A stretch of DNA of 64,000 bases from an uncultured Kangiella sp. (lineage in GTDB: Bacteria; Pseudomonadota; Gammaproteobacteria; Enterobacterales; Kangiellaceae): contig CATNCP010000010.1 of assembly GCA_950096615.1 (NCBI GenBank), forward strand, positions 1 to 64,000, written 5' to 3'. Of the stretch, positions 16,948-20,940 are shown in pieces. The translations under genes were made by a program, and so were the position numbers. The stretch's first letter is position 1; each line of letters begins with the position of its first letter. The notes beneath the pieces were generated by a model. The model saw only the letters and a program-made list of their open reading frames with translations. It did no database searches and had not been told where the DNA came from.

Positions 16948-16964
16948 TGCACCAAGTTGGTGCG
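16948..16964. promoter_or_regulatory. NtrC-type binding palindrome upstream of glnA
   Basis: The core GCACCAAGTTGGTGC fits the enterobacterial NtrC consensus GCAC-N7-GTGC. The same 15-mer appears before ntrB at 19166-19180. Its centre lies about 72 bp upstream of the start point implied by the -10 element at 17016, a distance used by activators that contact the sigma70 polymerase. Confidence 0.75.
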
Positions 16965-17012: not shown

Positions 17013-17021
17013 TGATATAAT
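17013..17021 (+). promoter_or_regulatory. Extended -10 promoter element of glnA
   Basis: TGATATAAT is a perfect TATAAT with the TGN extension, about 40 bp before the glnA ATG. A weak TAGTTT lies 16 bp upstream as a possible -35. A poor -35 with a good extended -10 is typical of activator-dependent sigma70 promoters. Confidence 0.5.
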
Positions 17022-17061: not shown

Positions 17062-18471
17062 ATGTCTGTAGACAATGTTTTAAAGATGATCGAAGAGTAC
17101 GACGTGAAATTTGTTGATTTACGCTTCACGGATACTAAAGGTAAAGAGCAACACGTCACTATCCCTGCTCGCGTAGTTGACGAAGACTTGTTGTCAGACG
17201 GCAAAATGTTTGATGGTTCTTCCATCGCTGGCTGGAAAGGTATTAATGAATCTGACATGGTTTTAATGCCAAACACAGATACGGCATTAATGGATCCATT
17301 CTACGAAGACGCAACCTTATTACTTCGCTGTGACATCTTAGAGCCTGCAACAATGAGCGGCTATGACCGTGACCCACGCTCAGTAGCTCGTCGCGCAGAA
17401 GAGTACTTAAAATCAACAGGCCTTGCTGATTCAGCATTTTTCGGACCTGAGCCTGAATTCTTCATTTTTGAAGATGTTAAATTTAAAACTGACATCAGTG
17501 GCTCTTCTTACAAAATCGACGATCCTGAAGCGGCTTGGAACTCTGACAAAAGCTATGAAGGTGGTAACACCGGTCACCGCCCTCGTGTAAAAGGCGGTTA
17601 CTTCCCAGTTCCACCAGTGGACTCTTCACAAGACTTACGTTCTCAGATGTGCCTTGTTTTAGAAAGCATGGGCCAAGTGATCGAAGCACACCACCACGAA
17701 GTCGGTACTGCCGGTCAGAACGAAATTGCGACTCAGTTTAATTCTTTAGTGAAAAAGGCTGATGAGATTCAAATCATGAAGTACGTTATCCATAACGTCG
17801 CTCATGCTTACGGTAAAACAGCAACGTTCATGCCAAAGCCACTCGCTGGTGATAACGGCTCGGGGATGCACGTTCATATGTCTTTAGCCAAAGATGGCAA
17901 TAACATCTTCGCTGGCGATAAATATGCAGGGCTTTCTGAAGAAGCTTTATATTATGTTGGCGGTATCATTAAGCACGCTAAAGCGCTTAACGCTCTAACC
18001 AACCCTTCAACAAACTCATATAAACGTCTGGTTCCTGGTTTTGAAGCACCGGTTATGTTGGCATACTCTGCTAAGAACCGTTCAGCATCAATCCGCGTTC
18101 CTCACGTAGGAAGCGCTAAAGCGCGTCGTATCGAGGTTCGCTTCCCAGACCCTATGGCAAACCCTTACTTAGCATTCGCAGGCCTAATGATGGCCGGTTT
18201 AGACGGTATCCAAAACAAAATTCACCCTGGTGATGCTATGGATAAAGATTTGTATGATCTTCCAGCGGAAGAAGCAATGTCTATCCCTCAGGTTGCGGGT
18301 TCGTTAGAAGAAGCACTAAATGAACTGGATAATGATCGCGAATTCTTGACTCGTGGCGGTGTTTTCTCTGATGACATGCTTGATGCTTATATTAATCTTA
18401 AGCGTGAAGATGTAGAACGCTTGAAGTTAACGCCATCACCTGTAGAGTTCGACTTGTATTACAGTCTATAA
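17062..18471 (+). CDS. glnA: Glutamine synthetase, type I (GSI-beta)
   Basis: The 469-residue enzyme condenses ammonia and glutamate with ATP and is the main ammonia-assimilating step. It shows the N-terminal beta-grasp domain ([26 protein letters not shown]), the metal-binding [11 protein letters not shown], the [11 protein letters not shown] and [10 protein letters not shown] motifs, and NRSASIRVP of the active site. KDLYDLP contains Tyr398, the residue adenylylated by GlnE in this class. Length equals that of E. coli. It is followed by a strong terminator, so it can be expressed separately from ntrB, as well as by an NtrC-type site upstream. Confidence 0.98.
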
Positions 18472-18586: not shown

Positions 18587-19144
18587 ATGAAATTATTACC
18601 GTTGACACTTTTTATTCTGTTGACCACTGGCGTTAGCTGGAACACCGTCGCAGCGAATGAAACCGTGATGTATAAAAAAGTGGACAAGAATGGCAAAGTC
18701 ACTTTTACTGACAAACCCATTCCTGGCTCTACGCCCATCACAATTAAGACCAACACCAATGTAGTCAAAACCCCAAAGCCTACGCTTATACAGCGCCAGC
18801 CTAAAGATGCTCCGAATGAAGATAAAGGTGAGCAGGCATTTAAGTATGAAGTACTTTCCATCGACTCTCCTTCTAACGACGAGGCCGTAAGAGCGAACGA
18901 TGGCGATATCAACGTAATTGTGGGAATAACACCAAATATTCAACCACAACACAGTTTACAGCTATTGCTAGATGGGGAAGCTGTCGGTACCGCACAGAAA
19001 GGGCCATATTTTTCGTTAAATAATGTTAATCGCGGCACACACCAGTTATCTGTCAAAGTTATCGATGACGAGAGCAAAGACACGGTACAAACAAGTGAGT
19101 CCATAACTTTCCATCTATTAAGAGCCTCAAGGCTGAATCGATAA
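18587..19144 (+). CDS. DUF4124 domain-containing periplasmic protein
   Basis: The 185-residue protein has a signal peptide (MKLLPLTLFILLTTGVSW to about residue 23) and a DUF4124-type N-terminus: YKKVDKNGKVTFTDKPIPG, the family pattern Y-x-x-x-D-x-x-G-x-x-x-F-T-D-x-P. The remainder is a beta-rich domain with LLLDGEAVG and GTHQLSVKVID, resembling an Ig-like fold. The role of DUF4124 proteins is unknown. Its position between glnA and ntrB recurs in many gammaproteobacteria as far as I recall, which may reflect only shared ancestry. AGGGA lies seven bases before the ATG. Confidence 0.85.
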   Translation: MKLLPLTLFILLTTGVSWNTVAANETVMYKKVDKNGKVTFTDKPIPGSTPITIKTNTNVVKTPKPTLIQRQPKDAPNEDKGEQAFKYEVLSIDSPSNDEAVRANDGDINVIVGITPNIQPQHSLQLLLDGEAVGTAQKGPYFSLNNVNRGTHQLSVKVIDDESKDTVQTSESITFHLLRASRLNR

Positions 19145-19164: not shown

Positions 19165-19181
19165 CGCACCAAGTTGGTGCG
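19165..19181. promoter_or_regulatory. NtrC-type palindrome upstream of ntrB (also a possible short hairpin)
   Basis: CGCACCAAGTTGGTGCG contains the same 15-mer as the glnA site. A TATACT at 19200-19205 is a candidate ntrB -10; the palindrome then centres near -39 and would block it, as NtrC represses glnLp in E. coli. The following TTTT also lets it act as a weak terminator for the DUF4124 gene. Confidence 0.65.
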
Positions 19182-19235
19182 TTTTATGCTCAAGCCAGAT
19201 ATACTAATAACTCCAATATATAATAAGCATCGAGC

Positions 19236-20315
19236 ATGCAGACAGAGCGACTTCTCGACAACCTCTCCACAGCTATAATTGCATTTGATGCCTATGGCCG
19301 CTTTGCTTATTTAAATCAGGCCGCTGAAAAAGCATTTTCAACCAGCAGCAAAGTTCTTGTCGGAAAGCGATACAGCTATTTTATAGCGAGTGACTCCTTG
19401 CCCATTACTAAGATTGTTGAAGCCCTGCGCCAAAACGGTCAGTTTATTCTGGATAGTGTCCAACTCAAGCTACTTAATGATAAAGAGTTAACCGTCGATC
19501 TCTCTGGCCATTGGTACCAAGCGGAGCAACCCTACTTAATTGTAGAGTGGCAAGATCCAAGCAACTTACCACACAGGGCTCAAAGCCATGACCTATCAAA
19601 ACAAAGCCAGGTCAGCGAGCGCTTGCTACAAAAACTTGCGCATGAAATCAAAAACCCACTAAGTGGAATTCGTGGTGCAGCACAGCTTCTCGCTAATGAG
19701 CCAAGAGCCACTAAAGATAACAGTATCACTGAATTTACCGATATCATTGAGCAGGAAACATCACGCCTGACACAGCTCGTTGATCGCATGCTGCTCTCCA
19801 CGCACAAAGCTACACGCGTGGACATGAACATTCATGAAATTACGGAAAGGGTCGTTGAGTTATCTGCCATAAACTTACCAACAAATATTGAGCTTAAGCG
19901 TGACTATGATCCGAGCTTACCCAACTTTTTCTGTGCTCCGGACTCAGTTTACCAAGCCATTCTAAACATCACGCAGAATGCTATCGAGGCCTGTTCTTCG
20001 CAAAAAGAAGCGGTCATAACACTTCGCACACGGGCATTACCGCGTCACACCATTAATGATAAACAGCATTCTTTAACAGTTTGCGTACAGGTCGAGGATA
20101 ACGGGCCGGGCATTCCACCAGAATTACAGCCCAATATATTCTTTCCTTTAATTAGCGGCAGAAACAGTAGTGGCTTAGGGCTTGGCATAGCGCAAAGTCT
20201 AATACAACAACAACAGGGACTTATAGAGTTTAGTAGCACACCTGACAAAACAGTTTTTTCGGTCTACTTACCAGTAATTAAACCTGATGGTTCCACGGGC
20301 GTGACTGATGAGTAA
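19236..20315 (+). CDS. glnL: Nitrogen regulation sensor histidine kinase NtrB
   Basis: The 359-residue cytoplasmic kinase has an N-terminal PAS domain (LLDNLSTAIIAFDAYGRFAYLNQAAE), an H-box LAHEIKNPLSGIRGAAQLL with His136, an N-box NITQNAIEA, a G1 box EDNGPGIP and a G2 box SSGLGLGIAQSL. The last 35 residues (IEFSSTPDKTVFSVYLPV) closely follow E. coli NtrB. It should phosphorylate and dephosphorylate the adjacent response regulator under PII control. The stop overlaps the regulator start by eight bases, so translation is coupled. Unlike its partner it is full length. Confidence 0.95.
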   Translation: MQTERLLDNLSTAIIAFDAYGRFAYLNQAAEKAFSTSSKVLVGKRYSYFIASDSLPITKIVEALRQNGQFILDSVQLKLLNDKELTVDLSGHWYQAEQPYLIVEWQDPSNLPHRAQSHDLSKQSQVSERLLQKLAHEIKNPLSGIRGAAQLLANEPRATKDNSITEFTDIIEQETSRLTQLVDRMLLSTHKATRVDMNIHEITERVVELSAINLPTNIELKRDYDPSLPNFFCAPDSVYQAILNITQNAIEACSSQKEAVITLRTRALPRHTINDKQHSLTVCVQVEDNGPGIPPELQPNIFFPLISGRNSSGLGLGIAQSLIQQQQGLIEFSSTPDKTVFSVYLPVIKPDGSTGVTDE

Positions 20316-20940
20316 CTCTGATATGAGTAGCACCGTATTAATAGTAGATGATGACAGCTCAATTCGTTGGGTGCTTGCTCGGGCACTTAACAATGCTCAA
20401 TTTAAAGTACTCTCATGCGACAGTGGCCAACAAGCCATCAGCATTATTGAATCAAACCCACCGCAACTGGTCATCACCGATATCCAGATGAATGGTATGG
20501 ATGGTCTTGAGCTTTTGGCTACTATTAATCACAAATGGCCAGAGCTTCCTGTAATCATGATTACTGCTTACGCTGACACCGACCTTGCAACAAAAACTCA
20601 TGAACTTGGTGCTTTCGATTATTTACCCAAGCCTTTTGATATTAACCACGTCATCAAGCTTTGCCAGCGCGCGGTTGATAGCCAGAAAGAACGGCAGGAA
20701 CTCCCTTTATGGTTACAGCAAATAGAAAAAAAAATTGATAGTGAGTACCACCAAGGGAATAGTGAGATACTGATTGAAATGCAACAACAGTTTGAAAAAT
20801 TTGTGGTCGAGTCAGCTTTGCGACTAACTCAGGGCCATAAACAAAAAGCTTCAAAAGTGCTTGGCTGGGGTCGCAATACGCTTACGCGTAAACTAAAATA
20901 CTGGCAAGAACACTCTGAACCAAAAACTGAAGAAGAATAG
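20308..20940 (+). CDS. Shortened NtrC: receiver plus Fis-type DNA-binding domain, without the AAA+ domain
   Basis: The 210-residue protein has a receiver domain (about 8-125: VDDDSSIRWVLARAL, phosphoacceptor D58 in VITDIQM, GAFDYLPKPFDI) and a C-terminal helix-turn-helix (ESALRLTQGHKQKASKVLG, GWGRNTLTRKLKYW), both nearly identical in pattern to E. coli NtrC. The central AAA+ ATPase of about 240 residues (Walker A, GAFTGA loop, Walker B) is missing, replaced by a linker of about 40 residues. The frame is uninterrupted and both ends align cleanly, so it looks like a precise domain loss and not a frameshift. It cannot activate sigma54 in the known way. It should bind the NtrC palindromes at 16948 and 19165 and regulate sigma70 promoters. 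Confidence 0.92.
   Translation: MSNSDMSSTVLIVDDDSSIRWVLARALNNAQFKVLSCDSGQQAISIIESNPPQLVITDIQMNGMDGLELLATINHKWPELPVIMITAYADTDLATKTHELGAFDYLPKPFDINHVIKLCQRAVDSQKERQELPLWLQQIEKKIDSEYHQGNSEILIEMQQQFEKFVVESALRLTQGHKQKASKVLGWGRNTLTRKLKYWQEHSEPKTEEE

Follow-up and report, generated by a model that had tools for sequence, protein, structure and literature searches.

The NtrC of Kangiella has lost its AAA+ domain and probably acts as a DNA-bound regulator at a sigma70 promoter of glnA

The AAA+ domain has been lost from NtrC in the genus Kangiella, and the remaining short protein, which its profile scores and gene neighbors indicate to be the true NtrC of this genus, has by clean removal of that domain become a classical two-domain response regulator. 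As a sigma54 activator NtrC is a textbook case, with its AAA+ ATPase being regarded as its engine; in Kangiella this ATPase has been removed whole from the nitrogen regulator of a genus, with the remainder being under strong selection. Considering that the AAA+ domain has been lost and that glnA is without a detectable sigma54 promoter, NtrC is probably an ordinary DNA-bound switch here, and the mechanism regarded as most likely, with a probability of roughly two in three, is that phosphorylated NtrC activates glnA by a class I contact with sigma70 polymerase. Searches of open-licence papers, judged by their listings and by excerpts, brought up no report of an AAA+-less NtrC orthologue.

The short ntrC gene is located on the forward strand at positions 20308-20940 of the window (being the whole 64 kb stretch of DNA that was analyzed), and specifies a protein of 210 amino acids in which the receiver occupies residues 10-117 and the C-terminal dimerisation and Fis-type HTH region approximately residues 135-200. 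Pfam analysis of this protein retrieved Response_reg (residues 10-117) and the Fis-type HTH_8 (residues 161-197), and no match to Sigma54_activat at an E-value of 0.1. The match to the solved NtrC receiver (1dc7) stops at residue 126 and that to the solved C-terminal domain of NtrC (1ntc, E-value 1.2e-11) starts at residue 135, placing the true join at about eight residues, in agreement with an alignment to full-length NtrCs in which the AAA+ domain is excised whole and in frame. Among 19 aligned Kangiella short NtrCs, D14-D16, D58, T86 and K108 of the receiver and the GWGRNTL motif of the HTH are invariant. The receiver retains the acidic pocket and the phosphoacceptor aspartate, threonine and lysine, and the 1ntc match and the alignment both identify the dimerisation and HTH domain of NtrC; the AAA+ domain with Walker motifs and GAFTGA that characterizes bacterial enhancer-binding proteins was not found in the short protein. 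The adjoining ntrB gene (19236-20315, forward strand) encodes a full-length NR(II) histidine kinase of 359 amino acids (PRK11073, 285 bits, cut-off 240). A preliminary description of this locus had reported an uninterrupted frame, an NtrC receiver with D58, the Fis-type HTH of NtrC, the absence of the AAA+ domain and an intact kinase, and these statements are all borne out by the above findings; the stretch of about 40 residues that it described as a linker, however, consists largely of the dimerisation region of NtrC itself.

The best of 108 NCBIfam matches of the short protein was the NtrC model TIGR01818 with 188.6 bits, which is under the whole-protein cut-off of 558.6 bits because the AAA+ part of the model has no counterpart in the short protein. 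Membership of other families was rejected, with NtrX (NF051870) scoring 94.4 bits against a cut-off of 600 and lower than NtrC, RegA/PrrA/ActR (NF033791) scoring 77.7 bits against a cut-off of 250, and FixJ being ruled out by its NCBIfam score. The gene furthermore lies near glnA (17062-18471, forward strand), the glutamine synthetase gene, named from sequence and presumed to be the main target, which is 83-99% identical in the 18 further Kangiella genomes that gave a match; the best-scoring model, the adjoining ntrB and the proximity of glnA together assign the short protein to the NtrC gene lineage. The features in common with canonical NtrC (NR(I), a group I enhancer-binding protein) are the NtrB partner, the glnA neighborhood, the receiver, the C-terminal dimerisation/HTH domain and the operator sequence, whereas the Kangiella protein differs from it in being without AAA+ and in having no sigma54 promoter detected at glnA, and this genome in having no rpoN detected. 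The RegA/PrrA/ActR regulators have the same receiver plus Fis-type HTH plan, but represent a different family by score. The nearest named loci are those of Kangiella taiwanensis, K. shandongensis and K. spongicola, at 77-78% identity. Between glnA and ntrB a gene at 18587-19144 has a weak DUF4124 match, and parts of similar proteins were observed at the same position in G021 and G032.

The distribution of both forms of NtrC was determined in 40 Kangiellaceae genomes, comprising 20 of Kangiella and 20 of other genera (here named sister genera). Short NtrC is encoded by 19 of the 20 Kangiella genomes in open frames of 204-247 residues, all 19 proteins matching receiver and HTH_8 and none matching Sigma54_activat at an E-value of 0.01. 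The remaining genome, G023, is 55% complete and was excluded from promoter and tree counts, as no short ntrC, glnA or rpoN was found in it. NtrC over the full-length cut-off occurs in 19 of the 40 genomes, all of these belonging to sister genera (19 of 20, the exception being G015, which is 73% complete), and no second ntrC over that cut-off was found in any of the 20 Kangiella genomes, this one included, for which an intact copy elsewhere had been raised as a possibility in the preliminary description. The dN/dS of short ntrC was 0.017-0.052 in four of eight pairs, the other four being uncomputable due to saturation, and these values indicate that the short NtrC is kept under purifying selection. 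A clean in-frame loss could also come from misassembly, yet an assembly deletion, a frameshift or a decaying gene is barely credible as the explanation for a short gene that is present in 19 genomes, five of which are single-contig assemblies, with the same join in the alignment rows shown, low dN/dS in the four computable pairs and both domains intact by Pfam in every case.

The preliminary description had placed the altered nitrogen control, as a possibility, in a lineage that lost or lacks RpoN. In order to place both losses, rpoN was scored by its DNA-binding domain across the 40 genomes, and was found in 32 of these, being all 20 from sister genera and 12 of the 20 from Kangiella; it was not found in G000, G017, G019, G021, G022, G033 and G034, nor in the incomplete G023. 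The first part of the earlier interpretation stands, since a genome-wide search of this genome, listed as 100% complete, revealed neither rpoN nor a sigma54 activator-interacting domain. Its second part, loss of rpoN as the cause, does not, as all 12 rpoN-positive Kangiella genomes also carry short NtrC. In a tree of GlnA and NtrB from 30 genomes (not a whole-genome tree, and with G015 omitted for the NtrC trait) the seven near-complete Kangiella genomes without rpoN group in a single nested clade with a support of 100/100, and a single change suffices for each of the two traits. The presence of short NtrC in all rpoN-positive Kangiella, combined with this nested clade, means that the AAA+ domain was lost first and sigma54 later on this tree. 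An order in which rpoN loss came first and left the AAA+ domain useless would accommodate the lack of a detectable rpoN in this genome, but was rejected as very improbable: it is contradicted by the above distribution unless several Kangiella groups re-acquired rpoN, and by two genomes of another lineage (G304 and G400) in which short NtrC coexists with rpoN.

The 64 kb window contains exactly two perfect GCACC-N5-GGTGC palindromes, a sequence which we take to be the NtrC consensus. Both are putative NtrC operators with the sequence GCACCAAGTTGGTGC, one before glnA (16949-16963), with its centre 60 bp before the predicted -10 box TATAAT of glnA promoter P1 (17016-17021, forward strand, extended by TG at 17013-17014 and paired with a poor -35), and the other before ntrB (19166-19180), where it overlaps the -35 region in a position of autorepression. 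The glnA site was recovered in all 19 Kangiella genomes examined (17 perfect, two with one mismatch) and the ntrB site is perfect in all 19, with similar sites preceding glnA and ntrB in many sister-genus genomes that encode full-length NtrC. At the threshold used, no sigma54 promoter was detected in any of the 19 Kangiella glnA regions, and one scoring 10-11 of 11 was detected in 17 of 18 sister-genus regions. This genome is thus without both the detectable rpoN and the detectable sigma54 promoter at glnA that would accompany a bacterial enhancer-binding protein. An NtrC-like site with at most two mismatches is likewise present in 17 of the 18 sister-genus regions, mostly 157-241 bp before the start. 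These 18 regions do not include G015, which was treated apart, or G007, which gave no glnA match; G012 was counted as a miss, since its 330 bp region yielded neither an NtrC-like site nor a sigma54 promoter scoring over 9 of 11, and the glnA start of G008 was placed at a non-ATG codon that by comparison with G009 seems to be about 32 bp off. The sister-genus thresholds (up to two mismatches for NtrC-like sites, 5 of 6 for -10 boxes) are permissive, so that some of these sites and boxes are due to chance.

The lack of a detectable sigma54 promoter in all 19 Kangiella glnA regions also bears on the proposal that the short NtrC still serves sigma54 by pairing with another AAA+ regulator. The rpoN-positive Kangiella genomes do retain other regulators with GAFTGA, which such pairing would call upon, but with no sigma54 promoter at the presumed main target, and no rpoN found in seven near-complete genomes of the genus, this proposal is hardly plausible.

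The distance from the operator centre to a perfect TATAAT is 60-62 bp in 18 of the 19 Kangiella genomes and 50 bp in G031 (where two TATAAT boxes are present, as in G018, G028 and G031, the one nearest to 61 bp was taken). This length is kept despite a diverged spacer, the identity of which is 0.31-0.35 between three clades as compared to 0.30 for shuffled sequences, and the distance from the -10 box to the ATG varies from 42 to 67. In mononucleotide shuffles (2000 rounds), a TATAAT occurred at 60-62 bp from a randomly chosen point in on average 0.07 of 19 regions, and in 2 at most. Within clades the spacer identity is 0.38-0.53, and shared descent may account for part of the constancy in length. 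The best -35 sequence has just 1-3 of 6 matches in all 19 regions. In the usual numbering the operator centre is located near -72 (near -62 in G031), from either of which positions CRP can act as a class I activator, and the Kangiella operator has the placement of a class I-type site, being upstream of -35 and on a fixed helical face in those 18 genomes.

These features suggest a mechanism in which NtrB, presumably under PII control, would phosphorylate D58 of the short NtrC, following which the phosphorylated dimer would bind the GCACC-N5-GGTGC operators. At glnA the predicted start of the sigma70 promoter, which combines a consensus -10 with a poor -35, lies approximately 72 bp downstream of the position of this dimer, from which the dimer would aid sigma70 polymerase in a class I-like manner, possibly by contacting the C-terminal domain of the alpha subunit. 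At ntrB, an operator lying over the -35 region would cause repression. The rewired nitrogen control proposed in the preliminary description agrees with the operators and with the exchange of promoters at glnA, and its statement that the protein can at most be a DNA-bound regulator of sigma70 promoters is in line with the loss of AAA+ and with the failure to find rpoN in this genome.

The predicted -10 box of ntrB (TATACT, 19200-19205, forward strand) is 27 bp from the operator centre, and in 18 of 19 Kangiella genomes (G025 differs) the centre is 25-27 bp before a -10-like box and the operator overlaps the -35; a distance of 25-29 bp was found in 9 of 19 sister-genus loci. NtrC is a repressor at some sigma70 promoters of enteric bacteria, and from its operator position the short NtrC probably represses ntrBC; such autorepression, needing only receiver and HTH, could have kept both domains under selection. 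The main rival to class I activation extends this role to glnA, in that the short NtrC would be solely a repressor or anti-activator which lowers expression of glnA and ntrBC, activation of glnA having been lost. In its favor are, besides the ntrB operators, the variable spacing of the glnA operator among related genera, the palindromes that cover the glnA -10 region in G045 (see below), and the fact that repression does not require any polymerase contact. The Kangiella glnA operator, however, is upstream of the -35 and helically phased, and the combination of a consensus -10 with a poor -35 in 19 of 19 regions is the usual look of an activator-dependent promoter, for which reason we consider a purely repressing NtrC unlikely, though more deserving of attention than any other alternative.

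The sigma70 promoter at which class I activation of glnA is proposed may be ancestral. In genus g2 (G001-G005, five of the 18 sister-genus genomes), which encodes full-length NtrC, an NtrC-like site is located 60-61 bp before a perfect TATAAT with the sigma54 promoter further downstream, so that this spacing did not arise with the loss of AAA+. The simplest reading of this arrangement is that ancestral glnA was transcribed from tandem promoters, P1 (sigma70) and P2 (sigma54), with Kangiella retaining the former. The Kangiella ancestor would then have lost both P2 and the AAA+ domain, and a single subclade, including this genome, would later have lost rpoN. Ancestral tandem promoters, if true, would provide an easy path out of sigma54 control. 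Elsewhere in the sister genera the distance from the site to a -10-like box is 66 bp (G037, G038 and G039), 69 bp (G014), 79 bp (G036), 51 bp (G006) or 55 bp (G013), and several genomes have no -10-like box 40-90 bp from the NtrC-like site. A distance of 66 bp differs from the Kangiella phase by half a helical turn and the other four values also misfit, indicating that Kangiella and g2 share a fixed phase which does not extend to the family as a whole. As a separate observation, in G015, a 73% complete bin of another genus in which NtrC of neither form was found and whose position in the tree is unsure (long branch), rpoN is present and glnA (L230, G015:C109) has a perfect operator 61 bp from TATAAT, with no sigma54 promoter at the threshold used.

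A class-wide search was performed on 369 gammaproteobacterial genomes drawn evenly, with up to eight candidates scored per genome. At least three of the 368 other genomes (G304, G400 and G045) encode a contiguous two-domain NtrC among the matches listed, in each case with glnA, ntrB and short ntrC in a row and with the short protein scoring best with NtrC models; the NtrB of G045 scored 204.7 bits, under the cut-off of 240. G304 and G400 belong to one genus (g227) and possess rpoN, and in G045 (a 1.7 Mb genome, 96% complete) rpoN was not found. Since G193, of the same family as G304, encodes a full-length NtrC with GSFTGA, the AAA+ loss in the G304 lineage was separate from that in Kangiella. 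AAA+-less NtrC arose independently in at least one other gammaproteobacterial lineage, and probably in two when G045 is counted on the basis of its membership of another family. The glnA genes of G304 and G400 are preceded by a single degenerate operator, 76 and 66 bp before TACAAT, in a phase unlike that of Kangiella, and that of G045 (L220:5200-8678) has two palindromes of the GCACTATAATAGTGC type, with two mismatches each, over its -10 region, a placement which suggests repression. We tentatively propose, with the chances being just short of even, a repeatable route by which a sigma54 activator becomes an ATP-free class I activator, in that the sigma54 promoter of the target is lost, transcription passes to a pre-existing and phased sigma70 promoter, the complete ATPase domain is removed, and rpoN can be lost only after that. 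The removal of this domain took place at least twice (Kangiella and g227), and a third instance is probable in G045, where the outcome may be a repressor instead. How sigma54 control is abandoned can here be tested directly, since there are sister clades with and without rpoN, a neighboring genus with possible tandem-promoter intermediates, and one or more independent repeats.

Among known systems, the NtrC proteins of Rhodobacter capsulatus and Caulobacter are without GAFTGA, act on sigma70 promoters and keep their AAA+ domain, according to the excerpted text of PMC10274813, which also states that R. capsulatus NtrC needs ATP binding, that Caulobacter NtrC needs its Walker residues, and that growth of Caulobacter in ammonium medium depends on the AAA+ domain. 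As far as that excerpt goes, Kangiella would resemble both in employing an NtrBC pair on nitrogen genes through sigma70 polymerase, but is unlike them in that its NtrC is without the AAA+ domain which they retain, and the Caulobacter requirement would, by analogy, count against activation by an ATPase-free NtrC. Beta-proteobacterial NtrX (PlrR) is a relative of NtrC without AAA+ (PMC13001219, in excerpt), but it is a paralogue with NtrY as its kinase and another gene neighborhood, and not the glnA regulator NtrC. The 180 amino acid GrtR (PMC12918730, in excerpt), consisting of a receiver and a Fis-type HTH, has the two-domain plan in common with Kangiella NtrC, being likened to it here by description.

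A strict operator search of 20 genomes returned seven places besides glnA and ntrB. Five of these (in G018, G024, G025, G028 and G029) are within open frames and were treated as chance occurrences, and the remaining two (in G021 and G022) consist of two perfect sites 40 bp apart, with the edge 71-72 bp before the start of a gene which, named from sequence, we take to be amtB. A nitrogen regulon that has shrunk to glnA, ntrBC and, in some genomes, amtB is consistent with the physiology of Kangiella, for which the excerpted text of PMC6000758 describes reduced genomes, an ability to grow on amino acids as the source of both carbon and nitrogen, and an ammonia transporter found in just one of five strains.

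Other regulators of the sigma54 type were also inspected in Kangiella. The PEP-CTERM response regulator PrsR has lost GAFTGA in all seven near-complete rpoN-minus genomes (L101, G000:C20:28619-29119, and L201-L206), its Walker A and B motifs being still recognisable, and the corresponding PrsR-type protein retains GAFTGA in 12 of 12 rpoN-positive Kangiella genomes, a contrast that agrees with the loss of rpoN in the former. L101 was identified as PrsR by TIGR02915 (612 bits, cut-off 502.6) and adjoins PrsK, and from the shared sequence around the motifs we infer that the other 18 sequences are PrsR orthologues. PrsR may be another regulator of the sigma54 type that adapts to the loss of sigma54, by a route other than that of NtrC. 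In a PrsR-like paralogue (L102, G000:C9:39522-40022, and L207) GSLHAG replaces GAFTGA and Walker B is degenerate, and in a third regulator (L103) both the GAFTGA loop and a normal Walker A are missing. Among the rpoN-positive Kangiella, a second group of AAA+ regulators (L200 and L209-L217) carries GAFTGS, GAFTNA, GSYTGS or GAFTGA at the corresponding motif, and this variation means that motif drift is by itself no proof of sigma54 loss.
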